From the NCBI RefSeq assembly GCF_001427905.1, contig NZ_LMEF01000033.1:62001-126000 (forward strand): DNA of 64,000 bases. Direction: 5' to 3'. Shown in pieces: positions 24,141 through 40,653 of this stretch. The notes below the pieces were generated by a model, which did no database searches, was not told the origin of the DNA, and saw nothing but the letters and a program-made list of their open reading frames with translations. The first letter of the stretch is position 1. Each line of letters begins with the position of its first letter. The position numbers and the translations under genes are program-made. Source of the DNA: Flavobacterium sp. Root420 (lineage in GTDB: Bacteria; Bacteroidota; Bacteroidia; Flavobacteriales; Flavobacteriaceae).

Positions 24141-25106
24141 CTACTCTTGCGTATTATACTTTCGTAAAAACTCACGAACTTTAATTCCGGCTTCTTTTAG
24201 ATCCTCATCCTTCCACTTGCCTTCTGATTTTGCCGATTTTTTAAGAATAGAACAAGTTTCATCTTTATCAGAGACCGACCAGGTTATCCAACTCAACTTT
24301 CGGTTCTCAATCCAATCAATATATTCTTGCCAGGCCTTCATGTTTAAGGGTCCGTCACCAGAAGCTTCCATTCCTGCGGACTCGGAAACAAATATCGGCA
24401 GGCCTTTTTTCAGGGCTTCATCTGTTCTGTCTCGTAAATCTTTACCATGTGTAGCCGCGTAAAAATGCATGGTATACATTATATTATCATAGCCTTTTAT
24501 AGGATCTGCCGCCGGAAGATCAACATCCTGATCCCAATGAGGAGAACCCACCAATATAATGTTGTCAGGATCATTTTTTCTAATTACCTTAATTACTTCT
24601 TCGGCGTAAGCCTTAATTTCCGGCCAGCTTTCGTGATCAGGTTCATTAAAAATCTCATATATTATATTGGGATATTTAGCATACTTTTTAGACATCTCAT
24701 TAAAAAATTCTGTTGCTTCTTTGAGATTTATGTTATGACTGTGCCAATCGATAATTACGTAGATATCTGATTTAATTGCTCCATTTACAACTGCTTCAAT
24801 TTTCTGTTTTGAAAACTCAGGATCTTTGATATAAGACAGTTGCCCAAGTTCGACACCCATCGCTGCACGTACCACATTACAATGGAAATCCTTTTTTAAC
24901 CAACTTACCGCTTTCTCATTATAAAATCTCGGCCACATACTATGCCAGCCAAAACTCATTCCTCTCAATACAACAGAATTGTTATTTTGATCTGTCAATT
25001 GAGTTCCTTGTACACGAAGCCGTCCATGATGTTTTACAAATTGTGCTTTTGAAACACAAAATATAAGCAACATAATAATGGTATAAAATTTAGCTTTTGA
25101 TTTCAT
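24141..25106 (-). CDS. Glycoside hydrolase family 5 (GH5_2-like) endo-glucanase/glucomannanase
   Basis: A 321-residue secreted enzyme with a signal peptide ending near VSKAQ and a single catalytic domain. The acid/base Glu155 lies in YEIFNEPDHESW and the nucleophile Glu242 in PIFVSESAG. The segments VVLRGMSFGWHSMWP, VVRAAMG, YVIIDWHSH and YAEEVIKVIRKNDPDNIILVG closely follow bacterial subfamily 2 cellulases such as Bacillus Cel5A. The retaining endo-attack on beta-1,4 glucosyl linkages would suit glucomannan backbones in this locus. It is the last gene of the leftward susC operon, 11 nt after GH27, with a terminator downstream. A pure cellulase role is possible; the subfamily call is from memory of family sequences. 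Confidence 0.88.
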   Translation of the reverse strand: MKSKAKFYTIIMLLIFCVSKAQFVKHHGRLRVQGTQLTDQNNNSVVLRGMSFGWHSMWPRFYNEKAVSWLKKDFHCNVVRAAMGVELGQLSYIKDPEFSKQKIEAVVNGAIKSDIYVIIDWHSHNINLKEATEFFNEMSKKYAKYPNIIYEIFNEPDHESWPEIKAYAEEVIKVIRKNDPDNIILVGSPHWDQDVDLPAADPIKGYDNIMYTMHFYAATHGKDLRDRTDEALKKGLPIFVSESAGMEASGDGPLNMKAWQEYIDWIENRKLSWITWSVSDKDETCSILKKSAKSEGKWKDEDLKEAGIKVREFLRKYNTQE

Positions 25107-25117
25107 TTAAATCGAAT

Positions 25118-26353
25118 TTACGGAATTAACCTTAATGTGATTACATCATGAGAAGCAATATCAGATTGAAAATTCTTTTTTGTATTACCGATTTCTTTAT
25201 TCTTCCAAAGATCTTTTAACTTAAAAACCACTTTACTAAAATCAGCTTCATAACCAAAATCGGTATCTTTAATGGAATGTTTTTTCCAATCAAAATTGAT
25301 TTTTTTAGCAACATCACTTCTGTTTAAAAAAGTAATTGCCCAATTTCCATCTGCTAAAGGTTTTACCCAAACTTCCAAATCATCTTCGGCAGAATACTTA
25401 AATCCCTGAATTCCCAATTTATCCTGATTCACCGCAATCAATTCCTTATTGGTTAAAATTGCTAATGTTTCTTTTGACATTTTTCTGAAATCATTTCCTG
25501 CAATTAGAGGTGAAGCCATCATACACCACATGGCAAAATGAGATTTATCTTCTGTATTTGTCATTCCGTCACCCACTTCCATCATATCAAAATCGTTCCA
25601 ATGATCCGGGCCTGAATATTTACGGATGTCTTTTCGCATCTCGATTATTTTCATAAATCCCCAGGAAGACCAGTTTCCTTCTACATGTTTATATTCGCAA
25701 TCAAAACATGGATAGATATCTCCTGAAATTCTCCAAAGATTTCCTACTAGTTTTCCCCATTCCCATGGCTGGTTGTCTCCCCATTCGCAAAGACTAAAAA
25801 CAATTGGTTTACCGGCCGTTTTAAGTGCATTACTCATAGTTGTGTATGCTTCTTTGGCTGTAATTCCTTGTGTATTACACCAATCGTATTTTAAGAAATC
25901 TATTCCGAGTTTAGCATAAAAACGGGCATCCTGATATTCGTAACCACGTGTACCCGGATATCCTGCACACGTTTGAGTTCCTGCACAATTATACAAACCA
26001 AACTTTAACCCTTTACTGTGTACATAATCAATAACAGCTTTCATTCCACTTGGAAATTTAACCGGATCCGGAACCAAATCTCCGTTTGCATCGCGTTCTT
26101 TGGTCATCCATCCATCATCAAGTACTATATAATTGTATCCTGCAGCTGCCATTCCTGATGAAACCATAATATCAGCGGTTTCCTTTACTAATTTTTCATC
26201 GATATTAGTTTCAAAAGTATTCCATGAATTCCAACCCATTGGCGGCGTCATTGCCAGACCTTCAAATTTGCCTGCTCCCTGTGAATGTGTATTTCCCTGA
26301 GTGAAGCCTAAACTTGATATACTTAATGCAATTGCTAAAATGATATTTTTCAT
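25118..26353 (-). CDS. GH27 alpha-galactosidase
   Basis: A 411-residue secreted enzyme with a signal peptide to about residue 19. The (beta/alpha)8 domain begins LAMTPPMGWNSWNTF. The nucleophile Asp157 is in FLKYDWCN, and the acid/base is one of the aspartates in HWNDFDMMEVG (254 or 256). A short beta-sandwich C-terminal domain ends LRLIP. It removes alpha-1,6-galactosyl side groups from galactomannan, giving the mannanases access to the backbone. It sits between the glycan-binding protein gene (89-nt gap with a hairpin) and GH5 (11 nt). GH97 at 44270 may provide a second alpha-galactosidase with a different preference. Confidence 0.95.
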   Translation of the reverse strand: MKNIILAIALSISSLGFTQGNTHSQGAGKFEGLAMTPPMGWNSWNTFETNIDEKLVKETADIMVSSGMAAAGYNYIVLDDGWMTKERDANGDLVPDPVKFPSGMKAVIDYVHSKGLKFGLYNCAGTQTCAGYPGTRGYEYQDARFYAKLGIDFLKYDWCNTQGITAKEAYTTMSNALKTAGKPIVFSLCEWGDNQPWEWGKLVGNLWRISGDIYPCFDCEYKHVEGNWSSWGFMKIIEMRKDIRKYSGPDHWNDFDMMEVGDGMTNTEDKSHFAMWCMMASPLIAGNDFRKMSKETLAILTNKELIAVNQDKLGIQGFKYSAEDDLEVWVKPLADGNWAITFLNRSDVAKKINFDWKKHSIKDTDFGYEADFSKVVFKLKDLWKNKEIGNTKKNFQSDIASHDVITLRLIP

Positions 26354-26382
26354 TCTTTAAAATTTTAAAAGATATTATAAAA

Positions 26383-26416
26383 AGATATTCCCTAATCTTT
26401 CAATTAGGGAATATCT
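26383..26416 (-). terminator. Hairpin with T-run inside the susC operon
   Basis: A perfect 14-bp stem, AGATATTCCCTAAT (26383-26396) / ATTAGGGAATATCT (26403-26416), with a 6-nt loop lies between the glycan-binding protein gene and GH27. On the minus strand five T follow the stem. It may be a partial terminator or mRNA-end stabiliser. Confidence 0.7.
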
Positions 26417-26442
26417 AAAACTAACTCAAATAATCAATTCTT

Positions 26443-27501
26443 TTATTTTAGGACAAATCCCATGTCATCCATAAGTATTGTGTTACCTCCAAAATTACCT
26501 GATTCCTGAAGCGTCAGCTGATCGAAAGTAGTTGGGTTTCCGATTGCTGAAAATGGAATTTCAATTGTTGTCCATGTCGAAGCAATTGATTTTTGGATTT
26601 GATAAGCCCATCCTCCAAATACAAACGTTATTTTAGCATCTGTATTGGCAGAAATACTTCTAACCTTAACTCTGAATGCTTTGTATTTTGAAACATCTCT
26701 AGAATTAAATTTCATATCGGCTCCGCCCCATCCAGCAAAAACAAATCTAATTGACGAATCTCCCTGAGTCTTATCTGTTTTATAATTTGTATCGAATACA
26801 TCTGAACCATTCCACATCCAATGCCCTGCATCTCCTTGCATTACATCATCATATAATGCCGATCCAACAGCAACAGTAGACGATGTGACACCAGAAATAT
26901 TGGCAACTGATACATATTTATCTAAACCATTTGCTGGCATTTTAAATTTAACTTCTGTTAAAGTAGAAGATATAACAGTGGCATTTTGAGTTCCAACTTT
27001 TACAATAGGATTTAGAAAATAATCTCCATTAATAGTTACAACATCACCTTCCGCAGCATTTATAGAATTGAACCACTTAAATGTTGGTATAGGAGGCGCA
27101 ACCGTTAAATCAAAAACAGCAGTTCCACTTGTGGTCACAACTTTTAATTGATTGGAAGCATTCGCATACGGCGTTTTTTCATCTACCAATACAATTATAT
27201 CCGTATCAGTTACAAATACTGGTTTAAAGTAGGTATCAAAATCATTAAAATAAACCTTTGTAGTACCAAGAAATCCTTTTCCGTGAATGACATAATAGTT
27301 TTTAGGATCTACTAGCGTTGTTGGAGTTAAAGGCTTAAGGCTGCCATCCAGATTATAACCAGAAGGCATAACCGACTCAATAACCGGAGCTCCACCATAA
27401 GAAGAAGAAGCACTATCATCATTTGAGCAGGAACTAAAAAGCATTAAAGATAACATCCATGCCATACATGCTGTTAACGAAACAATTTTTATATTTTTCA
27501 T
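26443..27501 (-). CDS. Surface glycan-binding lipoprotein (IPT/TIG type)
   Basis: A 352-residue lipoprotein (signal CMAWMLSLMLFSSCSND, lipobox Cys near 25). Two IPT/TIG-like immunoglobulin folds follow (about residues 38-125, PVIESVMPSGYNLDGS ... NYYVIHGKGFLGTTKVYFND; and 127-205, GDVVTINGDYFLNPIVKVGTQNA). The C-terminal beta-sandwich of about 150 residues (WMWNGSDVFDTNYKTD, FRVKVRSISANTDAKITFVFGGWAYQIQ, GNTILMDDMGFVLK) looks carbohydrate-binding. This layout matches SGBP-B type proteins encoded next to susD. It should sit on the cell surface and capture mannan. It starts 17 nt after susD and is in the same operon. Confidence 0.88.
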   Translation of the reverse strand: MKNIKIVSLTACMAWMLSLMLFSSCSNDDSASSSYGGAPVIESVMPSGYNLDGSLKPLTPTTLVDPKNYYVIHGKGFLGTTKVYFNDFDTYFKPVFVTDTDIIVLVDEKTPYANASNQLKVVTTSGTAVFDLTVAPPIPTFKWFNSINAAEGDVVTINGDYFLNPIVKVGTQNATVISSTLTEVKFKMPANGLDKYVSVANISGVTSSTVAVGSALYDDVMQGDAGHWMWNGSDVFDTNYKTDKTQGDSSIRFVFAGWGGADMKFNSRDVSKYKAFRVKVRSISANTDAKITFVFGGWAYQIQKSIASTWTTIEIPFSAIGNPTTFDQLTLQESGNFGGNTILMDDMGFVLK

Positions 27502-27518
27502 GTTTTTATTTTTAAAAA

Positions 27519-29117
27519 TTATTTAAAAGTATATGGTACTACTTCTGTCAATTTTGGGTTTTTAATCAAATCATCTGAAGGATAAGGCAATAAAAGGTTA
27601 GTTGCTGAAATTGAAATATGTTTTTCAGTTTCTCTGTTTCCTCTGTTTTGCGCTTCTAAAATTGCTTTGGCTTTTGCAAAAGGCAAACGTCCTAAATCAA
27701 AATAATAATCTCCTTCGCAAGCTAATTCAGCTCTTCTTTCTTTGAATATATCATCAAAAGAAATAGATACTTTTTGGGCTACACCAGCTCTTTTACGAAC
27801 TGCATTAAATGATTTAAGCGCATTTGGATCAGAAGTACTTCCTGATTGCGATCCTAAAATTGCTTCTGCGTGAATTAACAATAATTCTGCATAACGCATC
27901 ATGTAACTGTTCATGCTGCTTTCTCCATTGAAAGGAGGATTAAAAGGACCTGTAATAGGTAAATTTTCTTTTCCGATTACGTATTTCTTCAATCCAGCAC
28001 CAGATTTTTGCGCTTCATATTGAATATCAAATGTATATCCTAAAAGTTTTGGAGAATCGACAGCAAGCGTTTGCGCATAAGTCAGGTTTGGATAAAAATC
28101 TCCAGGTAACATAAAAGTCTCTATTCTTCTTTTATCACCATTTTCATAAACATTTTTAATTAAATCCTGTGAAGGTGCTATTTGACCTGAATAAGTAGTT
28201 TCAACCAATCTGTTCTCAGGAGCAAATAATGTATTTGAAAAGTTACCATCAAAGTAAGTTCCTGCACCATTCCATTGCCAGGAAAAAATTGACTCTTCAT
28301 TATTGTTGTTTTTTTGCAGCCATAGATCAGCAAAAGATTTTGTAGGCAAATCATCTCCACCTAATAATTTAAACTCTCCACTATTAATAACTTCCTGCGC
28401 CATTTGTCTGGCTAAATCATATTTCTTTTGATACAAATAAACTTTAGCCAAAAGTGCTTTTGCAGATCCGGAAGATACGTGTGCATTTGCAGCATAATCA
28501 GAACCTCTGTTTTTTGTTCTTAAATTTGCAATGGCAAATTTTAAGTCATTTTCAATAAATTTATAAACGTCTTCAGTAGGATTACTTGGAACTACAAAAT
28601 TCTGAGAATAATCAGCATTGTTTTCTATAATTGGCACATTGCCAAATAGTCTTACTAAAAAGAAATAAGAGAAAGCTCTAATAAAATGTGATTCTCCCAT
28701 CGCATTATTTAAGGCTTCTTTACTCACATTTGGACCAACACTTTGTGGCAAATTACTAATATAAGCATTAGAGTTTGCAATAGCGCCAAAACAGGATCTC
28801 CAGGCATCAGATATAAACGATTGCGTGTTGGTAAAACTCAAATCAGTAAATTTTCCAAAATCATTATATATATCAGCATACATATTACCAGAAATTACAT
28901 CTGTAATACCGTAAAAAGCTGATTTATTCATATTAAACCACACCAAACCATATAATCCGTTTGTAGCATTATCTAATTTTACATCTGAGTCGTAATAGTT
29001 ACCTATAGTTGGTGTTCCTTCTGCCGGTACGTCTAAGAATTCCTGAGAACAAGACGTTGATATTAACATTACAAATGTCATAGCAATAGCAACGCTTCTT
29101 TTTATTATATTTTTCAT
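27519..29117 (-). CDS. susD: SusD/RagB-family glycan-binding lipoprotein
   Basis: A 532-residue lipoprotein (MLISTSCSQEFLDVPAEGTP, Cys23). It has the alpha-helical TPR-like body (SHFIRAFSYFFLVRLFGNVPII, AKALLAKVYLYQKKYDLARQMAQEV) and the C-terminal RagB/SusD region (MRYAELLLIHAEAIL, FKERRAELACEGDYYFDLGRLPFAKA). It binds oligosaccharides and forms the lid over the SusC transporter. The gene starts 11 nt after susC and precedes the glycan-binding protein gene by 17 nt. The ligand is inferred as a beta-mannan from the enzymes around it. Confidence 0.97.
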   Translation of the reverse strand: MKNIIKRSVAIAMTFVMLISTSCSQEFLDVPAEGTPTIGNYYDSDVKLDNATNGLYGLVWFNMNKSAFYGITDVISGNMYADIYNDFGKFTDLSFTNTQSFISDAWRSCFGAIANSNAYISNLPQSVGPNVSKEALNNAMGESHFIRAFSYFFLVRLFGNVPIIENNADYSQNFVVPSNPTEDVYKFIENDLKFAIANLRTKNRGSDYAANAHVSSGSAKALLAKVYLYQKKYDLARQMAQEVINSGEFKLLGGDDLPTKSFADLWLQKNNNNEESIFSWQWNGAGTYFDGNFSNTLFAPENRLVETTYSGQIAPSQDLIKNVYENGDKRRIETFMLPGDFYPNLTYAQTLAVDSPKLLGYTFDIQYEAQKSGAGLKKYVIGKENLPITGPFNPPFNGESSMNSYMMRYAELLLIHAEAILGSQSGSTSDPNALKSFNAVRKRAGVAQKVSISFDDIFKERRAELACEGDYYFDLGRLPFAKAKAILEAQNRGNRETEKHISISATNLLLPYPSDDLIKNPKLTEVVPYTFK

Positions 29118-29128
29118 ATTAATTCGTA

Positions 29129-32100
29129 TTAAAATTCAACATTAAAACCAAAAGTGATCTGTCTAGGCACTGGATAACGACCGTTATCAACCCCTGATAA
29201 CAAGGCGTCCTGGTTGTAAGCACCTACCTCAGGATCATAACCTTTGTATTTTGTAAAAGTGAAAAGATTTTGTCCAGAAGCATAAATTCTCAATCTTGAC
29301 AAACTAAGTTTTGAAATCATATCTGAAGGTAAAGAATACCCTAAAGTTACGTTTTGAATTCTTAAATAAGATCCATCTTCAATAATACGTGATGATACTG
29401 CATTATTGATATTATCATAAGTCGATGGTCTTGGCAAAGATCCATCAATATTTGAAGCTGAATAAAAATCTGCAGCTTCAGTTAAATAATTTGTTCCAGT
29501 ACCATTGTTCAAAGTCCCTGACAAACGAGTCAGGTTCATTAACTTGTTTCCAGCTGTACCTTGAAGAAAAACAGATAAATCAACATTTTTGTATTTAAAA
29601 TTGTTTGTAAATCCGTAAGTGAATTTAGGATTTGGATTTCCAATGGCTTTTAAATCGTTTTGATCAATAATACCATCGTTATTTAAATCTTTATAAATAA
29701 CATCACCTTTTTGAAATTCCGGAAGCAAAGAATTGGTTCCATTTTTCAAAACTACTTTCGTACCTGTAGCATTTGTATGACCGTAAGTTGTCAAATCTTC
29801 GTCTGTTCTATAAATCCCTAAAGCTTCATATCCAAGAAATGAACCAATTGGTAAATCTTCCGTAGTTCTGGATACCGTTACAGTATTATAAGCCAGAGTA
29901 CCCATTGTTTTCACAATATTTAATCCGGCCATATTAGTAACCTCATTAACATATTTAGTAAAATTCAAACTACCATTCCATGAAAAATTATCAGAGAATT
30001 TTTCTGTGTAGCCAATTGTAAACTCTATACCCTTATTCTGCATACTTCCAAGATTAAAGTATGGAGGATTTACACCACCTTCATAATCACCACCTCCGGA
30101 AAGGAAGTTTGGTAAAGGAACCTGATACAAGAAATTTTTAGAAACTTTTTTATACATATCTACTGACGCTGTAAGTTTAGATTCAAACATTGTAAAATCT
30201 AATCCTATGTTGGTTTGATCCTGAGTTTCCCATTTCAAATTTTTATTTGGTGTATTTGATGGCAAATAAGAAGTTCCCATTGAGCTAATAACCAAATGCA
30301 GGTTTGAATCATATAAATTATTTCCTATTTGATTGTTTCCTGTTTGCCCCCAACCTACTCTTATTTTAATATTGTCAACATATTTTCTAGTGCTTTCCAT
30401 AAAATCTTCATTAGAAAGTTTCCAGGAACCACTAGCAGAACTAAAAACACCCCATTTGTTTCCAACAAAGAATTTTGAAGACCCATCAGTTCTTACAGCT
30501 CCGGAAACGCTATATTTATCACCAAAATCGTAAACTACCCTTCCTAAATAAGATGCTAAAGTTTGAGTTCCTGAATACACTCCGCTAGTAACTGCATTAG
30601 GCAAATCTGACGCAGCAAGAGATTTATCGTTATTATCTTTATAACCTTCTCCTGTTATAGTATAACCCTCCCAATGCGATCTGTTAGATTCCTGAACAGC
30701 TAAAATTGTGAAATTGTGTTTACCAATAGTATTTCTATAAGTAAGCATGTTTTTTAAGTTCCATGAATTACCACTTGAAGGACTGTAATATAAATTGGCA
30801 AAGCTTTTTACTGCATTACCCAATGAATACATAGGATCAAATCGCTGTCCTAAATTGTCATACATATATCCACCTACTTCAAAACGATATTCTAAACCTT
30901 TTACTATATCAATTTGAGTATAGAAATTTCCTGAATAATTTTTTCTTACCAAAGTATTTGAACCTAATAAAGAGGTCGCTACCGGATTTACAAATGATGT
31001 ATTACCTCCAGCTGGCGGTCCGGAAAAAGCACCAGACAACTCTCTCACTGCAACATCAGGAGTAGCTAACAAAGAAGTAGCAACAACTCCGTTAAACTGA
31101 CCATTCAAAGTAAGTTTTTCATCTGTAAGCGCTCCGCTAACGTTTACTCCAACTTTAATGAATTTATTAACTCTTGCATCAATATTAGATCTAAAATTAT
31201 ATCTTTTAAATCCTGATTCAATTACGATACCTTCCTGATTCAAAACGCCACCAGAAATATAATAGTTAATTCCCTCTTTACCACCTGAAAAAGACAATTG
31301 GTTCGAAGTCATAATTCCCGTTTCATAAATTGCATCTTGCCAATCAGTACCTTTTCCTAAAAGTTCCGGATGAGCAAATTCAGGACGTTTTGACGACGGG
31401 TCATAAACATCAGACAAAGCATTTTGATGAGTTGCATATTCTTGCAAATTCATAGAATGCAATTTTTTCGGCAAATTACTTATAGAATAAGAATTTTCGA
31501 AAGTCAATTTTCCAGTTCCTTTTTTACCTGATTTTGTAGTAACAATTACAACCCCGTTTGCTCCACGTGAACCATAAATTGCTGTAGCCGAAGCATCTTT
31601 CAAAATATCAATCGATTCAATATCACTAGGATTAATAAGTGCTAACGGACTTTGCGTAATATTACCATTATTAGAGAAATTGCTATTTCCTTGTGCATTT
31701 CGTCCAGAAGTAGATGAATTACGAGCATCCCCGGAAATTGGCACGCCGTCAATTACATATAAGGGCTCATTTGTACCAGTCAATGACGAAACCCCTCTAA
31801 TTCTAACTGAAACGTTACTTCCCGGCTCGCCTGAATTACTGTTAACCACAACTCCGGCAGCCTTACCCTGCATCATCTGGTCAAATGAAGCAACTTTTAA
31901 ATTTTCCATGTCTTTGGAACTAATACTGGAAATTGCACTGTTTACGTCCTTTCTTTTTTGGGTACCATAACCAATTACAACTACATCCCTTAAATCTTCT
32001 ACATTAGATTTTAAAACTACGTTTATAGTTGTTTTTCCTGCTACGGCTATCTTTTGCGTATTGAAACCAATAAAAGAGAATAATAATGTAGAATTTGCCG

Positions 32101-32323
32101 GAACATCGATAGTATACTTACCATCAAAATCGGTTGAAACTGTTGTTTTTAATCCGACAGCCGAAATATTTGCACCTGGAATAGAAAGCCCCTTCTCATC
32201 AGAAACGGTTCCCGAAACCTTTACCTGAGCCGTAATAAAATTACTCAGTAATAAGAATAAAATCAAAGGAACTGCTCTGTGGTTAGCATTCCAATGAATA
32301 AAGTTAGTCATTAGTTTTTTCAT
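29129..32323 (-). CDS. susC: SusC/RagA-family TonB-dependent outer-membrane transporter
   Basis: A 1064-residue transporter. The signal region is slightly long (to about residue 32, FITAQ). The N-terminal carboxypeptidase-like domain follows (VSGTVSDEKGLSIPGANISAVG ... FDGKYTIDVP), then the TonB box/plug (VVVIGYGTQKRKDVNSAISS, PLYVIDGVPISG, SIDILKDASATAIYGSRGANGVVIVTTK). The 22-stranded barrel ends RQITFGFNVEF. It imports oligosaccharides across the outer membrane with SusD as lid, driven by TonB. It is the first gene of the leftward operon. A 312-bp non-coding region with a -7-like box lies upstream, next to the AraC gene. Confidence 0.98.
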   Translation of the reverse strand: MKKLMTNFIHWNANHRAVPLILFLLLSNFITAQVKVSGTVSDEKGLSIPGANISAVGLKTTVSTDFDGKYTIDVPANSTLLFSFIGFNTQKIAVAGKTTINVVLKSNVEDLRDVVVIGYGTQKRKDVNSAISSISSKDMENLKVASFDQMMQGKAAGVVVNSNSGEPGSNVSVRIRGVSSLTGTNEPLYVIDGVPISGDARNSSTSGRNAQGNSNFSNNGNITQSPLALINPSDIESIDILKDASATAIYGSRGANGVVIVTTKSGKKGTGKLTFENSYSISNLPKKLHSMNLQEYATHQNALSDVYDPSSKRPEFAHPELLGKGTDWQDAIYETGIMTSNQLSFSGGKEGINYYISGGVLNQEGIVIESGFKRYNFRSNIDARVNKFIKVGVNVSGALTDEKLTLNGQFNGVVATSLLATPDVAVRELSGAFSGPPAGGNTSFVNPVATSLLGSNTLVRKNYSGNFYTQIDIVKGLEYRFEVGGYMYDNLGQRFDPMYSLGNAVKSFANLYYSPSSGNSWNLKNMLTYRNTIGKHNFTILAVQESNRSHWEGYTITGEGYKDNNDKSLAASDLPNAVTSGVYSGTQTLASYLGRVVYDFGDKYSVSGAVRTDGSSKFFVGNKWGVFSSASGSWKLSNEDFMESTRKYVDNIKIRVGWGQTGNNQIGNNLYDSNLHLVISSMGTSYLPSNTPNKNLKWETQDQTNIGLDFTMFESKLTASVDMYKKVSKNFLYQVPLPNFLSGGGDYEGGVNPPYFNLGSMQNKGIEFTIGYTEKFSDNFSWNGSLNFTKYVNEVTNMAGLNIVKTMGTLAYNTVTVSRTTEDLPIGSFLGYEALGIYRTDEDLTTYGHTNATGTKVVLKNGTNSLLPEFQKGDVIYKDLNNDGIIDQNDLKAIGNPNPKFTYGFTNNFKYKNVDLSVFLQGTAGNKLMNLTRLSGTLNNGTGTNYLTEAADFYSASNIDGSLPRPSTYDNINNAVSSRIIEDGSYLRIQNVTLGYSLPSDMISKLSLSRLRIYASGQNLFTFTKYKGYDPEVGAYNQDALLSGVDNGRYPVPRQITFGFNVEF

Positions 32324-32403: not shown

Positions 32404-32411
32404 CAAATCTA
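32404..32411 (-). promoter_or_regulatory. Candidate -7 box TAGATTTG of the susC operon
   Basis: The minus strand reads TAGATTTG, 81 nt before the susC ATG. No TTG is seen in the -33 region. Instead, AAAACATTAAATCGATA (32421-32437) partly resembles the repeated sites at 33575-33732, as expected for an activator-dependent promoter. The rest of the gap 32324-32635 is A/T-rich with no gene; a small palindrome ATATCATTTAATGATAAT lies at 32443-32460. Confidence 0.4.
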
Positions 32412-32635
32412 TAACAGAAGAAAACATTAAATCGATAGTATTATATCATTTAATGATAATATTTTTACTATATCTTCTTAAAAAAACATATATGAAAATA
32501 AAAATAATAAAAAATTGCATTTTTCGCAATCACACTCCCCTAGATCAATACAAATTATAAATAAAAATTAACGAATCACTGAAAAAGCAAACGATTTCGT
32601 TAAAAATAATATTTGTTTGTGCAAAAAAAGTATCA

Positions 32636-33514
32636 TTACAAAATGCGCTTTAATCCAGAAAAATCTTCTCTATATTGGCTAGGTGTACAATTTTTAATAG
32701 CCTTAAAGCTACGATTGAAGTTGGCAATATTATTAAAGCCTGATTTAAATGCAACTTCTGAAACACTCATATCCTTTTCAACAAGCCAGCGCGCTGCATA
32801 TCCAATCCGAATATCATTAATATAATTCACAAAAGTTTTTCCGGTACGTTTTTTAATAAATCTATTAAAAGAAATTATCGACATGCTGGCAACATTGGCC
32901 ACACCTTCTAACGTAATTTTTTCAGCAAAATGTTTTTGCACATACTCGTAAACTAATTTCATTTTATCATAGTCATCAAACGTATCATAGTCGACTGTGT
33001 AAGTTGAAAGCAATCGTTGATTTCTTGAATTAGCCAGATCATATAATAAGGAAGTAATTTCCAAAAAATAATCCATACCATCTAATTTAGAAAGTCTTAC
33101 AAGTCTTGGAGTCAATTCTTCAGCCACTTTTTTAGAAAATAAAATACCATGAATGGAACGATTGAACATATCCCGAATCGGATTCATAATTCGTCTGGAC
33201 AAAAAAGACTCATGGAACAAATCGTTATGAAACTGAATCGTAATTTCGTGAATTTTTTTACTGGTACATTTACTTAATTCCCAACCGTGATATAAATTTG
33301 GGCCAATTAAAACCAATTCAACACTATCGATTTCTTCAATATTATCTCCAACAACACGCTTCACTCCTTTTCCATTTAGAATAAAATTGATTTCAAATTC
33401 CGGATGATAATGAACCGGAAAATCAAAACTATCTTTAACTCTATCGAAAACTAAAAAACTGTCTCCAGCCGAAAGCGGAGCAATTTCTCTGTAAAAATTT
33501 TTAGCACTACTCAT
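32636..33514 (-). CDS. AraC-family transcriptional regulator
   Basis: A 292-residue soluble regulator. An N-terminal cupin-like sensing domain (FPVHYHPEFEINFILNGKG, residues about 30-50) is followed by a helical linker. The C-terminal two-HTH AraC domain (about 190-290) contains ITLEGVANVASMSIISFNRFIKKRTGKTF and VSEVAFKSGFNNIANFNRSFKAIKNCTPSQYR. It has no periplasmic sensor, so it is a one-component regulator that probably senses a cytosolic mannan-derived sugar (inference). It lies between the leftward susC operon and the rightward GH26 operon and is the likely activator of both. Repeated ATTGATAA sites lie in the 304-bp gap upstream of it. Confidence 0.95.
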   Translation of the reverse strand: MSSAKNFYREIAPLSAGDSFLVFDRVKDSFDFPVHYHPEFEINFILNGKGVKRVVGDNIEEIDSVELVLIGPNLYHGWELSKCTSKKIHEITIQFHNDLFHESFLSRRIMNPIRDMFNRSIHGILFSKKVAEELTPRLVRLSKLDGMDYFLEITSLLYDLANSRNQRLLSTYTVDYDTFDDYDKMKLVYEYVQKHFAEKITLEGVANVASMSIISFNRFIKKRTGKTFVNYINDIRIGYAARWLVEKDMSVSEVAFKSGFNNIANFNRSFKAIKNCTPSQYREDFSGLKRIL

Positions 33515-33574
33515 CTTTAAAAGGTATTTATTTTAACAACTCGTGATTTTTTATTTGCAATAATATGATATATA

Positions 33575-33776
33575 ATTGATAAAATAATATTAATTACGCG
33601 ATAAACATCCGATTATCTTTGAAAAATAGAATTATCATTTTTACAAAAAGTATATTGATAATAAACATTAATCATTTTTAATATAATAACTTTTTAAAGT
33701 TTTAATAATTTTAATTGATAAACAATATTAATTTAAAGATTGAAAAAGTGACAGTTTTATAATACATTTATCAATT
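33575..33776. promoter_or_regulatory. Three direct operator-like repeats plus an inverted half
   Basis: Near-identical sites occur at 33575-33594, 33654-33672 and 33714-33732, all starting ATTGATAA and ending (C/A)ATTAAT or ATATTAAT. A reverse copy of the left half, TTATCAAT, is at 33768-33775. They lie in the divergent region between the araC-type gene and GH26, and the last full site ends just upstream of the GH26 promoter candidate. The AraC-family protein is the obvious candidate binder (inference). Confidence 0.55.
33740..33770 (+). promoter_or_regulatory. Candidate promoter TTG-N20-TACATTTA of the GH26 operon
   Basis: TTG at 33740-33742 and TACATTTA at 33763-33770 (one mismatch to TAnnTTTG) have correct spacing, 48 nt before the ATG. 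The operator-like site at 33714-33732 lies directly upstream of the TTG, where an activator would be expected. Confidence 0.4.
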
Positions 33777-33818
33777 GTTACTTTTACACTTATATACGAA
33801 AAAACAACTATACTTCTA

Positions 33819-34955
33819 ATGAAAAAAAATATACAAATGCTAATAATAACAATACTTATAGGGACTTCATGTTCTTCTAAAGCAATTGTTACTAATACTA
33901 ATTTGTCACTTTCAGATAAAAAAGCGACATCTGAAACTATTTCTCTTTACAAAAAACTAAATCAATTAGCCCAAAAAGGTTATTTATTTGGGCATCAGGA
34001 CGACCTTGCCTATGGAGTAAACTGGAAATACGAAAAGGACAGAAGTGATATAAAAGATGTCGTTGGAGATTATCCGGCTGTGTATGGCTGGGATCTGGCA
34101 GGCCTGGAAAAAGACAGTTCCAACAATATAGATGGAATTCCCTTTACAAAAATGAAGCAATACATAGAAGAAAGTCATGAAAGAGGCGGAATTACAACCA
34201 TAAGCTGGCATTTTGACAACCCTGCAACCGGAAAAAGTGCTTGGGATAGTACTCCAAATGCTGCAAAAACAGTTTTGCCGGGTGGAGAAAACCATCAAAA
34301 ATTCACTCTTTGGCTAGACAAAGCAGCAAACTATCTTTTATCCTTAAAAGATAAAAAAGGAAAAAACATTCCAATTCTTTTTAGACCTTATCATGAACTT
34401 ACCGGAGGCTGGTTTTGGTGGGGAAAAGGAAATTGTACTCCCGAAGAGTTTAAAACTTTATGGAAATTCACTATTGATTACCTTCAGAAAAAAGGCGTTC
34501 ATAATTTAATTTATGTCTACAACACCAGCAGTTTTAACTCAAAAGAAGATTTTTTAGCCCATTATCCGGGTGACAATTATGCTGATGTTTTAAGCTTCGA
34601 TTCGTATCAAAATAATAATGATAAAGAAGGCAAAAAGTTTATTGAAGAAGTTCAGAATCAACTTAAAATAGTAAACGAAATCGGGATTGAAAAACACAAA
34701 TTAATCGCTGTCGCAGAAGCGGGTTACGAAGCAATTCCAGACCCAAAATGGTGGACAGGCACTTTATCAAAAGCTATTGGTGATTACAAGATATCTTATA
34801 TTTTATTGTGGAGAAATCATGGCTGGCAGGAAAAAGAACAAAAAATGCATTATTACGTTCCATATACTGGACAAATAAGTGAAAAAGATTTTGTCGATTT
34901 TTATAATCTCGACAAAACCTTATTTGAAAAAGATATTCAGAAAGCATTAAAATAA
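33819..34955 (+). CDS. GH26 endo-beta-1,4-mannanase, lipoprotein
   Basis: A 378-residue enzyme with a lipoprotein signal (ILIGTSCSSKA). The GH26 domain begins YLFGHQDDLAYGVNWKY. The acid/base Glu193 is in RPYHELTGGWFWWG and the nucleophile Glu300 in AVAEAGYE; the WHFDNP motif also fits. It cleaves internal or chain-end beta-1,4-mannosyl bonds with retention. It may release mannobiose, which would feed the epimerase and phosphorylase encoded downstream (inference). It is the first gene of the rightward operon, 36 nt before the transporter gene, behind the operator-like repeats. It shares family and layout with the GH26 at 39406 but is clearly diverged from it. Confidence 0.95.
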   Translation: MKKNIQMLIITILIGTSCSSKAIVTNTNLSLSDKKATSETISLYKKLNQLAQKGYLFGHQDDLAYGVNWKYEKDRSDIKDVVGDYPAVYGWDLAGLEKDSSNNIDGIPFTKMKQYIEESHERGGITTISWHFDNPATGKSAWDSTPNAAKTVLPGGENHQKFTLWLDKAANYLLSLKDKKGKNIPILFRPYHELTGGWFWWGKGNCTPEEFKTLWKFTIDYLQKKGVHNLIYVYNTSSFNSKEDFLAHYPGDNYADVLSFDSYQNNNDKEGKKFIEEVQNQLKIVNEIGIEKHKLIAVAEAGYEAIPDPKWWTGTLSKAIGDYKISYILLWRNHGWQEKEQKMHYYVPYTGQISEKDFVDFYNLDKTLFEKDIQKALK

Positions 34956-34991
34956 TAACCAACTCAAATTACAACCTTTAAAAAGAACCCA

Positions 34992-36383
34992 ATGCACGAC
35001 AAAATTAGTTTAAAAGAAAAAGTAGGTTATGGTCTTGGAGACGCTGCGTCATCCATGTTCTGGAAAATTTTCAGTATGTATCTGCTCTTTTTCTATACCG
35101 ACGTTTTCGGATTGGCACCTGCTGTTGTAGGAACCATGTTTTTAATCACCAGAATCTGGGATTCCTGCTTTGATCCAATTGTTGGAATCATTGCCGACAG
35201 AACCAAAAGCAAATGGGGAAAATTCAGACCTTATTTATTGTGGGTTGCCGTGCCTTTTGCCGTTATTGGAGTTTTAACTTTTTACACCCCTGATTTTGAT
35301 GAAAAAGGAAAAATAATTTATGCTTACGTAACGTATTCGGCAATGATGATGATTTATTCGCTTATCAACGTACCGTATGCATCCCTTTTGGGCGTAATGT
35401 CGTCTGACCGAAAAGAGAGAAATACCTTATCTTCTTACCGAATGGTTTTTGCATTTGGAGGAAGTCTTTTAGCACTTTGGTTAATTGAGCCTCTGGTAAA
35501 TTATTTCGGCGGAAGCCTAAACTCTAAATCAGGCTGGTTGACAACAATTGCCGTTTTTGGAGTGATTACAACTGCTTTTTTCTGGGGTTGTTTTTTCTTC
35601 ACAAAAGAAAGAGTGAAACCAATTTCTGATGAACAGTCCAACTTAAAAGAAGATTTAAAAGACTTATTAAAAAATAAACCATGGTGGATTTTGCTGGGAG
35701 CCGGAATTGGCGCCTTAGTTTTCAATTCTATCCGTGATGGAGCTGCCGTTTATTACTTTAAATATTATGTAAGCAGTAGTATCAACTTTGATTTCAATTT
35801 ATTCGGAACAGATTTCCACATGACACCAACTTCCATTTATTTGGTTTTGGGTCAGGCTGCCAATATCATCGGCGTTATTATCGCAACACCAATTGCTAAT
35901 AAAGTCGGGAAGAAGAAAACCTTTTTTGGAGCCATGGCTTTAGCCGCCATTTTGAGTTTAGTGTTCTATTTCTTCGGAAAAGAAGATATTCTCCTAATCC
36001 TGAGTTTTCAGGTTTTAATCAGCATTTGCGCAGGTTGCATTTTCCCATTAATCTGGTCCATGTATGCTGACAGCGCCGATTATTCAGAATGGAAACAAGG
36101 CCGTAGAGCCACAGGATTAGTATTCTCTGCTTCATCCATGTCACAAAAATTTGGCTGGACCATTGGAGGAGCCGGAGCAGGATGGCTTTTAGGATATTAT
36201 GGTTTTCAGGCTAATGTCGAACAAACGGCCGTTGCTCAAAACGGAATTCAATTAATGTTAAGCATACTTCCTGCAATTGCAGCTTTTATATCAGTCGCTT
36301 TTATTTTGTTTTATCCTTTATCTGAAGAAAAACTGCAAACCATAGAACAAGATTTAAACGAAAAAAGAGACCAGACCATTTAA
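34992..36383 (+). CDS. GPH-family sugar:cation symporter (MFS)
   Basis: A 463-residue inner-membrane protein with about 12 hydrophobic segments. It has the GPH pattern: KVGYGLGDAASSMFWKIFSMYLLFFYTDVFGL near the N-terminus, DPIVGIIADRTKSKWGKFRPYLLW between segments 2 and 3, and YADSADYSEWKQGRRATGLVFS in the second half. It should bring mannobiose or short manno-oligosaccharides into the cytosol, since the two genes after it encode cytosolic enzymes for exactly that substrate. It ends with a soluble Glu/Lys-rich tail. The next gene follows after 28 nt in the same operon. Confidence 0.94.
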   Translation: MHDKISLKEKVGYGLGDAASSMFWKIFSMYLLFFYTDVFGLAPAVVGTMFLITRIWDSCFDPIVGIIADRTKSKWGKFRPYLLWVAVPFAVIGVLTFYTPDFDEKGKIIYAYVTYSAMMMIYSLINVPYASLLGVMSSDRKERNTLSSYRMVFAFGGSLLALWLIEPLVNYFGGSLNSKSGWLTTIAVFGVITTAFFWGCFFFTKERVKPISDEQSNLKEDLKDLLKNKPWWILLGAGIGALVFNSIRDGAAVYYFKYYVSSSINFDFNLFGTDFHMTPTSIYLVLGQAANIIGVIIATPIANKVGKKKTFFGAMALAAILSLVFYFFGKEDILLILSFQVLISICAGCIFPLIWSMYADSADYSEWKQGRRATGLVFSASSMSQKFGWTIGGAGAGWLLGYYGFQANVEQTAVAQNGIQLMLSILPAIAAFISVAFILFYPLSEEKLQTIEQDLNEKRDQTI

Positions 36384-36411
36384 AATTATACAGATACAGA
36401 AATCGATTAAT

Positions 36412-37602
36412 ATGACAACAATAGCCACTTCCACTACATTTCAGGATAGAAAAGTAGCATTAGAGAAAGAACATAAAACCCTTATAGAGCAAAAAAATGC
36501 TCCTGAAGAAAATGCTGGAAACGGCATATACCAACGCTATAAAAAACCAGTAGTTACAGCGGCTCACGTGCCATTGAACTGGCGTTTTGATTTGAATGAA
36601 AAAACAAATCCATTTTTGCAGGAACGAATCGGAATGAACGCCGCTTTTAACGCCGGTGCCATGAAATGGAACGGTAAATATTTATTAGCTGTTCGTGTTG
36701 AAGGAATTGACAGAAAATCCTTTTTCGCTATTGCTGAAAGTCCAAATGGGGTCGATAATTTCAAGTTTTGGGAGAAACCATGCGTCATTCCACAAACTGC
36801 AGAACCGGATACCAACGTTTACGATATGCGTTTGATCAATCATGAAGACGGCTGGGTTTATGGCATTTTTTGTACGGAAAGAAAAGATCCGAAAGCACCA
36901 AAAGGCGATACAAGTTCGGCTGTAGCCAATGCGGGAATTGTGCGTACAAAAGATTTAGTGAATTGGGAAAGGCTTCCTGATTTGATTTCAAACACCGGAC
37001 AACAACGAAATGTCGTTTTGCATCCGGAATTTGTAAACGGAAAATACGCTTTATATACCCGTCCGCAAGATGGATTTATTGATGTTGGAGCTGGTGGCGG
37101 AATCGGTTTAGGTTATGTGGATGACATGACAAATCCGGTTGTAAAAGAGGAGAAAATTATTTTCGGAAAACAGTATCATACTATTTATGAATTAAAAAAT
37201 GGTCTTGGCCCTGCTCCGATCAAAACCGAAAAAGGCTGGCTGCATTTGGCACACGGCGTTCGTAATACCGCTGCAGGTTTACGTTACACACTTTATATGT
37301 TCATGACTGATTTGAACGATATTACAAAAGTAACACACGTTCCTGCCGGTCATTTTATGGGACCTGAAGACATTGAAAGAGTTGGCGATGTATCGAATGT
37401 GCTGTTCTCTAACGGGTGGATTGAAGATAACGACGGAACAGTTTATATATATTATGCTTCATCAGATACGAGAATGCATGTTGCGGTTTCATCAGTTGCA
37501 AAACTAGTTGACTATGTTATGAACGCTCCGGCAGATACTTTTATTTCTGCAGGATCTGTGAAAACCATCATCAGTCAAATTGAAAAAAATAACGCAATTT
37601 AA
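36412..37602 (+). CDS. GH130 4-O-beta-D-mannosyl-D-glucose phosphorylase
   Basis: A 396-residue cytosolic enzyme with no signal peptide. The five-bladed propeller core of GH130 subfamily 1 is visible: NPFLQERIGMNAAFNAGAMKWNGKYLLAVRVEG, DTNVYDMRLINHEDGWVYGIFCTER (Asp138 corresponds to the proposed general acid of the Bacteroides fragilis enzyme), LHPEFVNGKYALYTRPQDG, and GPAPIKTEKGWLHLAHGV. It converts mannosyl-beta-1,4-glucose and phosphate to mannose-1-phosphate and glucose. Its pairing with the epimerase gene, 6 nt downstream, reproduces the known mannan catabolic pathway, which supports this specificity over mannobiose phosphorolysis. Confidence 0.95.
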   Translation: MTTIATSTTFQDRKVALEKEHKTLIEQKNAPEENAGNGIYQRYKKPVVTAAHVPLNWRFDLNEKTNPFLQERIGMNAAFNAGAMKWNGKYLLAVRVEGIDRKSFFAIAESPNGVDNFKFWEKPCVIPQTAEPDTNVYDMRLINHEDGWVYGIFCTERKDPKAPKGDTSSAVANAGIVRTKDLVNWERLPDLISNTGQQRNVVLHPEFVNGKYALYTRPQDGFIDVGAGGGIGLGYVDDMTNPVVKEEKIIFGKQYHTIYELKNGLGPAPIKTEKGWLHLAHGVRNTAAGLRYTLYMFMTDLNDITKVTHVPAGHFMGPEDIERVGDVSNVLFSNGWIEDNDGTVYIYYASSDTRMHVAVSSVAKLVDYVMNAPADTFISAGSVKTIISQIEKNNAI

Positions 37603-37608
37603 TTTATC

Positions 37609-38796
37609 GTGTCAAAACTAAAGCAACTCAAATCTGAATTAACTGCCGAACTTGATGCTATCCTGAAGTATTGGTCAAAAAATACAATTGACAATCAAAA
37701 TGGAGGTTTTATTGGTCAGATTGATTTTAACGATCATCTGATTGCTACTGCCGAAAAGGGTTCTGTTTTGAATGCCCGAATTTTATGGTCGTTTTCTGCC
37801 AGTTATCAGGTTACTAAAAATGAAGAACATAAAAAAATGGCGACGAGAGCTTTTGACTTTCTTTCAAAATATTTTTATGATGCAGAGTTTGGAGGTCTGT
37901 TTTGGAGTATAAATGCTGATAAAACGCCAAAAGACACTAAAAATCAGATTTACGCTTTGGCTTTTGCTATTTATGGATTAACAGAATATTATGCTATTTC
38001 TAAAGAGGAAAAAGCTTTAGAAATGGCTATAAACTTATATTTACAAATACAACAACATAGCTACGACCCTGTAAACGGAGGCTATCTGGAAGCTTTTACT
38101 CGGGAGTGGAAACCTATGGCCGATTTGCGTCTTAGTGATAAGGATGCCAACGAAAAGAAAACGATGAATACGCATTTGCATATTGCTGAAGCATATGCAA
38201 ATTTGTTTAAAGTCTGGAAAGACAAAAAACTCCAAAATGTTATTGTTGAATTATTAGCAACAATCGAAGAGCGTTTTATCAATACTGAAACAGGGCATTT
38301 AAGATTGTTTTTTAATGAAGAATGGATCGAAAAACCGGATGTAATCTCCTATGGACATGATATCGAAGCAGCCTGGCTTTTACTACAATGTGCCGAAATT
38401 TCAGAAGATGAAACTCTAATTGCCAATTATAAAAAACATGCCATTCAAATAGCCGAAGTTACTCAGGAAGGCTTAGATACTGACGGCGGATTATGGTATG
38501 AATTAAATCCAAAAAACAACGAGTTAATCGCTGAAAAACATTGGTGGGTTCAGGCCGAAGCTTTAATTGGATTTTATAATGCGTATCAATTAACCGCTGA
38601 CGAAAAGTATGTAGACCTTGTTTTGAAAAACTGGAATTTCATCAAAAGATACATTTTAGACCAACAAAATGGCGAATGGTTTTGGGGAATTAACCGCGAT
38701 TATTCTTTGATTGAAAAAGACAAAGCCGGTTTTTGGAAATGTCCTTATCATAACAGTCGCGCATGTTTAGAACTAATTCTGAGAATAAAGGACTAA
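37609..38796 (+). CDS. Cellobiose 2-epimerase (AGE superfamily)
   Basis: A 395-residue cytosolic enzyme with a GTG start 6 nt after the GH130 stop. The (alpha/alpha)6 barrel motifs are present: DNQNGGFIGQIDFND, KGSVLNARILWSFSASY, NTHLHIAEAYANL, SYGHDIEAAWLLLQCAE, EKHWWVQAEALIGFYNAY and FWKCPYHNSRACLE, including the conserved His residues of the family. It interconverts beta-1,4-mannobiose and mannosylglucose (and cellobiose with glucosylmannose) by C2 epimerisation at the reducing end. It supplies the substrate of the GH130 phosphorylase. Length and motifs match characterised Bacteroidota enzymes. Confidence 0.96.
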   Translation: MSKLKQLKSELTAELDAILKYWSKNTIDNQNGGFIGQIDFNDHLIATAEKGSVLNARILWSFSASYQVTKNEEHKKMATRAFDFLSKYFYDAEFGGLFWSINADKTPKDTKNQIYALAFAIYGLTEYYAISKEEKALEMAINLYLQIQQHSYDPVNGGYLEAFTREWKPMADLRLSDKDANEKKTMNTHLHIAEAYANLFKVWKDKKLQNVIVELLATIEERFINTETGHLRLFFNEEWIEKPDVISYGHDIEAAWLLLQCAEISEDETLIANYKKHAIQIAEVTQEGLDTDGGLWYELNPKNNELIAEKHWWVQAEALIGFYNAYQLTADEKYVDLVLKNWNFIKRYILDQQNGEWFWGINRDYSLIEKDKAGFWKCPYHNSRACLELILRIKD

Positions 38797-38843
38797 ACTT
38801 CTCCACAACAAAAAACAAATTATTGTATTTAAAAATTTTGATT

Positions 38844-39401
38844 ATGAAACAACTCTTATTTTTTAGTTTATTATTTCTAACTACAATAACAAACGCCCAA
38901 ACCAATCTGGTCAAAAACGGTGGATTTGAAACCGAATTAATCAATTGGCGCGGTGATGTTGCGACAATTTCTCCTTATGATAAAAAAACAGGGAAAAACG
39001 GCGCTGTAATTAATCAATTTGTTGGAAACGAATGGAAGGCAATTGACCAAATAATGACGATTCCTAAAAATACTTATGCTGTAGCGTTTAGTGTCTGGAT
39101 TAAAACAGAAGGTATTGAAGGCGGAAAAGAAGCCTACAATGCAGGCGCCATGATTGCTGAATTTACAAATAATTCCGAAAAGCAAATCAGTTCAGACGCA
39201 ATTGCACAAGTAAAAGGATCTAATCCCTGGACAAACTACAAAAAAACAATTAAGACGCCTGCTGCTGCGCAAAAAATAAGAATAATGCTGGCTTTGGCAC
39301 AGACAAGCGGTTCTATTTATTTTGATGATGTAAAAGCTGTTGCTTTATCTGAAGAAGAATATTCTAAATTAAACCCGGTTACAGCAAATCCAGAAAATTA
39401 A
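38844..39401 (+). CDS. Secreted CBM4/9-like carbohydrate-binding protein
   Basis: A 185-residue protein. I chose the ATG at 38844 because it begins a good signal peptide (MKQLLFFSLLFLTTITNAQ); the longer frame from 38763 overlaps the epimerase gene and would bury it. The mature part is one beta-sandwich: NLVKNGGFETELINWRGD, AIDQIMTIPKNTYAVAFSVWIKTEG, RIMLALAQTSGSIYFDDVKAV, a typical CBM_4_9/galactose-binding-like pattern. There is no catalytic domain. It could bind mannan in the periplasm or at the surface and assist the GH26 gene product encoded 4 nt downstream. A stand-alone binding module in such a locus is unusual. Confidence 0.82.
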   Translation: MKQLLFFSLLFLTTITNAQTNLVKNGGFETELINWRGDVATISPYDKKTGKNGAVINQFVGNEWKAIDQIMTIPKNTYAVAFSVWIKTEGIEGGKEAYNAGAMIAEFTNNSEKQISSDAIAQVKGSNPWTNYKKTIKTPAAAQKIRIMLALAQTSGSIYFDDVKAVALSEEEYSKLNPVTANPEN

Positions 39402-39405
39402 AAAA

Positions 39406-40653
39406 ATGAAAACAACATTTCTCAAAATAGCATTTTTAAGTTTGTCGATTTTAACATTGGTGAATTGTTCATCGGATAATGAATCAGGCCCTGAAAAGAT
39501 CGACCCAAATCCCGTAGACGATACTAAAATAACCGCTCAAAACGTAACAAAATTTATTGTAGATAAAGGTGCCACTGCAGAAACTGTAGCTTTATTTTAT
39601 AATTTAAAAAAACTAGGTGAATCCAAAGTTGCTATTGGACAACAGGATGCTTTTAATAATTTTTATCAGGATGCGGCAGGAGAATCTGACATTAAGAAAA
39701 ATACAGGCTTTGATCCAGCCGTTTTAGGTTCTGATTTCATATTTATTACAGATAAAAACAATAATAATCAGGCTGATAACTGGTTTTATCAACAGGAAAC
39801 AAAAACTATAGCTGATGTGAAACTTGCTTACGCCAAAGGTATTGTAAATACTTTTAGCTGGCATTTAAGAGAACCTAATAATGAAGATTCTTTTTATGCA
39901 TCTGATATGACATCGACACAAAAAAACACTGCTTTTAAAAGTATTTTACCTGGCGGAGCAAATCACGAATGGTACAAGAAAAAACTGGATAAAGTGGCCA
40001 GCGTATTTTTAAATCTAAAAGGTTCAAAAGGAGAATTGATTCCGATAATCTTCAGGCCTTTTCATGAATTTGACGGAAGCTGGTTTTGGTGGGGTGCTAA
40101 TTTTTGTACGCCCGAAGAATACAAAACTGCCTATAAATTTACAGTTGACTATTTAAAAAACACAAAAGGTGTTCATAATGTTTTGTATGCGTTTTCGCCG
40201 GATAACTCTTATTCGACAGCCGAATCTTATTTAAGCCGATATCCCGGAGATGCCTATGTTGATGTTTTAGGAATGGACAATTACGGCGACTTCAACAATC
40301 AAGGCCTTACTGGTGCCAAAAATGCCAATTTAAAATTAAAACTGATATCGACTTTAGCTTATACCAAAGTTAAAATTGCGGCATTGACCGAAACAGGATA
40401 CCAGGTTACAGCAACAACTCCGCCTATTACAGATTGGTTTTCTAATTATTTATACACAGCGTTAAATGATCATCCTACACTTGATGTCCCTCTTATTTCA
40501 ATAAGTTATGTAATGTTTTGGACAAATAGTAAAGAGGCATATTTTGTACCGAATGGTTCTGTATCAAATGCAGCTGATTTTAAAACGTTCACAGAAAAAC
40601 CAAAATCGGCATTACTGAATTCTTTGCCGAAGATGTATGAATTGCCGAAGTAA
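39406..40653 (+). CDS. GH26 endo-beta-1,4-mannanase, second copy, lipoprotein
   Basis: A 415-residue lipoprotein (LSILTLVNCSSDNESG, Cys22) with a Pro/Asp-rich linker. The GH26 domain begins around residue 55 (AETVALFYNLKKLGESKVAIGQQDAF). The acid/base Glu221 is in RPFHEFDGSWFWWGANFC and the nucleophile Glu329 in ALTETGYQV. SWHLREP is the WHF-type motif. It is more elaborate than the first GH26 (insert around residues 95-130, DKNNNNQADNWFYQQ). It probably acts at the outer surface as an endo-mannanase. It starts 4 nt after the CBM-like gene. A decayed copy of its 3' end lies downstream at about 40934-41068. Confidence 0.95.
   Translation: MKTTFLKIAFLSLSILTLVNCSSDNESGPEKIDPNPVDDTKITAQNVTKFIVDKGATAETVALFYNLKKLGESKVAIGQQDAFNNFYQDAAGESDIKKNTGFDPAVLGSDFIFITDKNNNNQADNWFYQQETKTIADVKLAYAKGIVNTFSWHLREPNNEDSFYASDMTSTQKNTAFKSILPGGANHEWYKKKLDKVASVFLNLKGSKGELIPIIFRPFHEFDGSWFWWGANFCTPEEYKTAYKFTVDYLKNTKGVHNVLYAFSPDNSYSTAESYLSRYPGDAYVDVLGMDNYGDFNNQGLTGAKNANLKLKLISTLAYTKVKIAALTETGYQVTATTPPITDWFSNYLYTALNDHPTLDVPLISISYVMFWTNSKEAYFVPNGSVSNAADFKTFTEKPKSALLNSLPKMYELPK

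Follow-up and report, generated by a model that had tools for sequence, protein, structure and literature searches.

A conserved operator-promoter module predicted to tie an AraC-family regulator to beta-mannan genes in Flavobacterium

The beta-mannan locus and its AraC-family gene

A beta-mannan utilization locus in Flavobacterium sp. Root420 consists of two divergent gene sets with an AraC-family gene between them, which raises the question of where the encoded protein might act and how far its influence could reach. The window analyzed here is the whole stretch of 64,000 nucleotides containing this locus (G000:C33:62001-126000). As the initial annotation had indicated, the AraC-family gene separates the regions upstream of the two operons.

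24141 to 32323, minus strand, susC operon: SusC, SusD, IPT/TIG protein, GH27-type alpha-galactosidase and GH5
32636 to 33514, minus strand, AraC-family regulator gene, 292 aa (Pfam HTH_18, E value 3.7e-22; HTH_AraC, E value 1.3e-11)
33819 to 40653, plus strand, GH26 operon: GH26, GPH symporter, GH130, 2-epimerase-like protein, unknown ORF and GH26

Both Pfam matches of the 292-aa protein exceeded their cut-offs (78.8 bits for HTH_18 and 44.7 bits for HTH_AraC), and its PDB profile matches were AraC-type domains such as 6swi, MarA and AraC. The protein carries the C-terminal double HTH that defines AraC/XylS-family DNA binding; the Pfam search returned no domain match for its N-terminal part, and the predicted structure was too poor for use (mean pLDDT, 42.1). 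The genome encodes 48 further AraC-type matches besides this gene. Three ORFs within or after the mannan operon, at 38763-39401 (212 aa), 41087-42811 (574 aa) and 42836-44131 (431 aa), had no Pfam match, and the sole NCBIfam match to the 574-aa ORF was weak (E value, 7.5e-05) and far under the cut-off.

Conservation of the repeated sites

The initial annotation proposed three near-identical direct sites and an inverted half as operator-like repeats upstream of the GH26 operon, together with a partial likeness near susC.

33575 to 33594, plus strand, S1, ATTGATAAAATAATATTAAT
33654 to 33672, direct site, S2, ATTGATAATAAACATTAAT
33714 to 33732, plus strand, S3, ATTGATAAACAATATTAAT
33768 to 33775, inverted half, TTATCAAT
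32422 to 32433, likeness near susC, AAACATTAAATC

The letters of the three direct sites, the inverted half and the likeness near susC are all present at these positions. Their conservation was followed in named relatives chosen by araC product, of which 80 loci were kept (94 to 99% identical, nearly all Flavobacterium). The S1 word ATTGATAA was retained in 79/80 loci, compared with 7/80 for S2, 0/80 for S3 and 5/80 for the inverted half; conservation of the motif in relatives, put forward as a check on the repeats, held for S1 but neither for S3 nor for the inverted half. As members of a three-operator array, S3 and the inverted half were rejected on these counts and S2 was considered doubtful. 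Since the array is mostly unconserved, the operator appears to be a single longer site, of which S1 forms the proximal portion.

Exact copies of the words ATTGATAA and TTATCAAT occur four times in ∼300 bp of the window, where a first-order Markov model predicts a mean of 0.10 (0/2,000 simulations reached four), and at least two such words were carried by 22/80 relatives, making extra lineage-specific half-sites possible. Both observations would suit joint action of the three direct operators and the inverted half, for example through cooperative binding or looping, yet with S3, the inverted half and S2 so rarely conserved we regard this as highly improbable beside the single longer site. S3 is possibly a lineage-specific extra half-site or a chance occurrence. 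When a looser 19-mer pattern was searched with two mismatches allowed, nine matches were found in the AT-rich window against a shuffle mean of 5.47, and 14/100 shuffles reached nine, so it was not clearly enriched.

S2 falls within a second conserved block (33654-33712; mean identity over 33632-33712, 0.87 in the 80 relatives), in which its TTGATAA is retained in just 7/80. The block is not an operator copy; as an RNA leader it yielded no Rfam match and no consensus pairs in 14 sequences. It lies on the downstream side of the start site predicted for GH26 and could be a second promoter or another protein's site.

An operator-like element at fixed distance from two -7 boxes

Conservation around S1 was highest over a longer stretch. 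Mean identity among the 80 relatives was 1.0 across 33557-33575 and 0.99 across 33575-33594, with flanking values of 0.48 (33520-33554) and 0.51 (33733-33800), and the core 35-mer at 33556-33590 was exact in 77/80. On these alignments, S1 reads as the promoter-proximal part of a longer conserved element at 33556-33594, and a related element was recognized at the susC promoter.

33556 to 33594, plus strand, predicted GH26-side operator: distal half 33556-33569, proximal half 33577-33590 (S1 region)
33614 to 33621, plus strand, GH26 operon -7 box TATCTTTG, 37 bp after the proximal-half start, in 80/80 relatives
32435 to 32469, minus strand, predicted susC-side operator: distal half 32469-32456, proximal half 32448-32435
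32404 to 32411, minus strand, susC promoter -7 box TAGATTTG, 37 bp after the proximal-half start

The two predicted operators are identical at 27/38 positions, and a 29-mer pattern of the susC-side copy was found with zero to two mismatches in 80/80 relatives. A relative of the site near susC therefore exists, as the initial annotation had supposed, at a different place from the stretch it named: the likeness AAACATTAA.TC at 32422-32433 was rejected as the susC counterpart because that stretch is variable in the susC alignment of relatives. Nor does the third site abut the promoter, as had been suggested; it is the TATCTTTG box that marks the conserved promoter, and that box is not beside S3.

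At both promoters the 14-mer TGATAWAATAMTAT begins exactly 37 bp ahead of a TANNTTTG box in 80/80 relatives, and the bases separating half-site from box are variable. The spacing was also examined in a second set of 55 loci with AraC identity of at least 69%, which includes the window, excludes L001 (same as the window) and L062 to L065 (AraC below 69%), and may overlap in species with the 80 relatives. The 37-bp spacing was present on the GH26 side in 52/55 loci and on the susC side in 51/55. The misses were L057 and L059 on both sides, the downstream side of L048 (contig end), and the upstream side of L061 and downstream side of L060, in which the box is shifted 1 bp further. A proximal half-site thus stands at a fixed distance beside the core promoter, the arrangement by which class II operators are recognized. 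Within its own genome, a 29-mer drawn from both sites matched only two places with up to three mismatches, the GH26 and susC promoters, and the backwards control gave one match. A search for sigma-70-type promoters was uninformative (15 found; shuffle mean, 12.4).

Genus-wide distribution and an unlinked GH2 gene

To follow the module through the genus, 199 genomes were scanned with the strict pattern TGATAWAATAMTATTA-N21-TANNTTTR, matched exactly. It gave 92 matches in 54/199 congeneric genomes, compared with none for the reversed pattern. Sixty-six matches lay no more than 400 bp from araC and 25 no more than 150 bp from a GH2 ortholog; the remaining one, in G044, precedes the start of a gene whose product is homologous to GH26 (64% identity over 73 aa), the gene being cut by the contig end. 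In the Root420 genome the strict pattern recovers the GH26 and GH2 sites and misses the susC site. These counts also bear on a reading of the sites as chance repeats in AT-rich DNA, without regulatory significance. The lack of clear enrichment of the loose 19-mer could be cited in its favor, but for S1 it is contradicted by the near-invariant 35-mer between flanks of ∼50% identity and by the 92 exact matches against zero reversed controls, and we give it next to no credence; S3 and the inverted half may nonetheless be chance.

A genome was counted as araC negative if its best match to araC fell short of ∼E 1e-100. The strict pattern occurred in 53/55 genomes with an araC ortholog and in 1/144 others, the exception being G044, which has a 48% AraC homolog elsewhere. 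Fisher's exact P value for this co-occurrence (1e-44) is too optimistic, being inflated by same-locus matches and shared ancestry; the GH2 sites offer more independent evidence.

The GH2 gene also emerged from a sequence-only model, R1, built from 33 sequences. In the Root420 genome the top three R1 matches were used: two of 49.9 bits at the GH26 and susC promoters and a third of 19.3 bits (E value, 0.006) upstream of GH2; the fourth onward had E values of 0.37 or worse.

9863 to 12688 of L222 (G000:C1), minus strand, GH2 beta-galactosidase (GalA-like) gene, unlinked to the mannan locus; half-site and spacing (37 bp) as at the GH26 and susC promoters

The encoded protein matched the NCBIfam beta-galactosidase GalA model with 1,106 bits (cut-off, 900). 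Among the best 30 GH2 matches, the Root420 gene included, 29 had the half-site (at most 2/18 mismatches) and TANNTTTA at 37 bp; the thirtieth, L241, at first seemed empty because a contig end cuts the locus, and there too both the site and its box occur. In G094, the susC gene string itself contains a GH2 homolog (56%), and homologs of 55 to 56% lie at most 8 kb from araC in G030, G112, G139, G153 and G168. From these sequence comparisons, the GH2 gene is a likely third regulon member, and a regulon of three promoters is well supported as a prediction. Beside the GH2 gene, at L222:13301-14167, is a gene whose product combines an AraC-type HTH with a ChrB_C domain.

When R1 was applied to 23 chosen genomes, five without an araC match (G002, G007, G009, G012 and G022) gave nothing, and three with distant homologs (G110, G231 and G328) were likewise without a match. 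Weaker R1 matches in other genomes were inspected at L217, L218 and L219, and that in L219 was taken as chance, falling within a 648-codon open frame. Twelve of the 17 fetched stretches (L223, L225, L227 and L230 to L238) stood outside the analysis.

The module in more distant relatives

Within the same family, the site was found at 37 bp on both sides of an AraC gene of 67% identity (L083) and beside those of 59% (L085 and L086); near the araC genes of L084, L087 and L088 (57 to 60%) there was no convincing site. L082, from another family (AraC, 71%), has the site on both sides with a spacing of 38 bp. In family f5 (AraC, 54 to 56%), the susC-side site was present at 37 bp in 8/8 loci examined. 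At class level (AraC, 47 to 49%), the half-site of L277 matches at 16/16 positions and its box stands at 38 bp, while that of L280 matches at 15/16 and has its box at 37 bp; the other 7/9 loci gave none or weaker matches, perhaps by chance. The second araC copies L057 and L059 (75 to 76% identity) have no operator on either side; their genomes also hold an araC ortholog.

Near position 2513 of L277, a near-perfect repeat, ATAAAATASTATTA, was seen by eye to have a pitch of 18 bp; a TAATTTTG box stands at 38 bp. The f5 loci L089 to L096 also carry a site like TGATAAAATAATATCAAT ∼45 to 60 bp upstream of araC. Reading in reverse from araC, no -7 box stands at 37 bp, an arrangement that suggests an autoregulatory site.

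Half-site architecture and the probable binding protein

The two halves were compared with each other at a 21-bp offset. The tandem match was 12/14 for susC in f5 (P = 0.00015), 9/14 for GH26 (P = 0.06), 9/14 for susC (P = 0.045) and 6/14 for GH2 (P = 0.42); at GH26, a 19-bp offset slightly outscores 21 bp. A tandem direct-repeat reading of the half-sites is thus supported, not proven, being statistically firm in one class only, the f5 susC sites. The proximal half itself contains an imperfect dyad (ATTGATA..TATTAAT), which competes with the tandem reading, and at the GH2 sites it is the proximal half alone that is well conserved.

This imperfect inverted symmetry in S1, the bare proximal half at GH2 and the 48 other AraC-type matches in the genome could each be accommodated if another regulator, for example a repressor that recognizes a dyad or a paralogous protein of the AraC or HTCS type, bound the site and the adjacent araC were a bystander. 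We consider that unlikely, since the pattern tracks the araC ortholog across the genus (53/55 compared with 1/144 genomes) and the site flanks araC in other genera, both beside susC and under changed gene order.

Proposed mechanism

We think it very probable, judging from the genomic patterns above, that the element is the operator of the adjacent AraC-family activator and drives the GH26, susC and unlinked GH2 promoters. An AraC-family dimer would bind the two half-sites, and the proximal half, TGATAWAATAMTATTA, which begins exactly 37 bp before the Bacteroidota -7 box, would lie just upstream of the would-be -33 element. The bound protein would then activate RNA polymerase, presumably in class II fashion, at both the GH26 and susC operons and at the GH2 gene. 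A cytoplasmic mannan disaccharide, for instance beta-1,4-mannobiose or mannosyl-glucose, is the probable inducer, to judge from the GPH symporter, GH130 and epimerase genes of the operon.

A published account places the Bacteroidota -7 box at -12 to -5 (PMC9723704). With the box so placed, the proximal half would span about -49 to -36, with the distal half at roughly -70 to -57. These predicted positions fit class II activation and resemble those of araI2 and araI1 in E. coli.

The GH26-side operator may have a second role at araC itself.

33557 to 33565, minus strand, GCAATWATA (TATWATTGC in complement), region of a candidate -7 box for araC with one mismatch, overlapping the GH26-side distal half

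GCAATWATA was found within 80 bp upstream of araC in 52/53 loci, compared with one locus that has it on the susC side at up to 250 bp; the count omits L001, L057, L059 and L062 to L065. Because the distal half overlaps this candidate box, the same binding that would activate GH26 probably represses araC, and the predicted operator would then also control its own regulator's gene.

That overlap, together with some overlap with the start region and the ability of AraC-type proteins to repress, would also be compatible with an AraC protein that represses the mannan operons until an inducer releases it. The site, however, lies upstream of the -7 box with a rigid 37-bp spacing at both promoters, a geometry from which polymerase contact is expected rather than blocking; repression of the mannan operons is accordingly a decidedly unlikely alternative to activation.

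Relation to known systems

The proposed arrangement recalls E. coli AraC at araI1-araI2, in that an AraC-family DNA-binding domain is paired with two half-sites upstream of a promoter. The predicted operator positions relative to the start site are similar to those of araI1-araI2, and the half-site sequence is unrelated to araI. Unlike araBAD, the present promoters have a Bacteroidota -7 box instead of sigma-70 -35 and -10 elements, and neither a CRP site nor an upstream looping site was identified at this locus. In araBAD, two proximal half-sites upstream of the promoter recruit RNA polymerase, according to a study of epistasis in that element (PMC4760080).

HTCS proteins of Bacteroides PULs share the AraC-type DNA-binding domain. 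For B. thetaiotaomicron, one report predicts HTCS motifs in the form of direct repeats whose tandem sites are separated by 21 bp on average, and lists mannan PULs among those under HTCS control, the mannans there being alpha-mannans (PMC3878776). The 292-aa protein matches HTH families only, has neither sensor-kinase nor receiver domain, and so falls outside the HTCS class.

Closer in content is a Muricauda beta-mannan PUL with similar enzymes, whose AraC-type factor FG28_RS02325 is expressed with the PUL (PMC9860051); the likeness to the present locus concerns AraC type and content alone. In Zobellia, deletion of the AraC-type CgrA is reported to delay growth on carrageenan (PMC5698469), and the portions available of these two accounts give no operator for either regulator (PMC9860051, PMC5698469). 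In Vibrio, XylRA positively regulates a polysaccharide locus by way of AT-rich direct repeats, as EMSA showed (PMC12125979). XylRA differs in its LacI-type sensor domain and its gammaproteobacterial host. The sections available of a paper on Flavobacterium hemicellulose mention a heteromannan PUL and no AraC (PMC11892949), and hemicellulase regulation is treated in a review (PMC10766802). AraC-type operator-promoter systems are thus an already known kind; for the present operator and regulon, no description was found in the open-licence literature, outside which most subscription journals lie.

Implications for mannan use in Flavobacterium

In our judgment, PUL regulation outside gut Bacteroides is little mapped. 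Here, sequence alone yields a specific predicted operator, the rigid distance that separates it from the Bacteroidota -7 box, and a likely regulon gene at an unlinked place, the GH2 beta-galactosidase, whose neighborhood in its own genome would not link it to mannan breakdown. We see an even chance that a broader picture holds, in which one AraC activator and a rigid module of half-site, 37 bp and -7 box run a beta-mannan regulon reaching beyond the PUL to the unlinked GH2 gene, uniting removal of the alpha- and beta-galactosyl decorations of plant galactoglucomannans; parts of the order would share the module, traces of it would extend to class level, and a scan with nothing but the pattern would find PUL regulon members in trans. 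If confirmed, the predicted operator, its spacing and the unlinked regulon gene would provide a mannan-inducible promoter for Flavobacterium and a route for assigning orphan enzymes to PULs.
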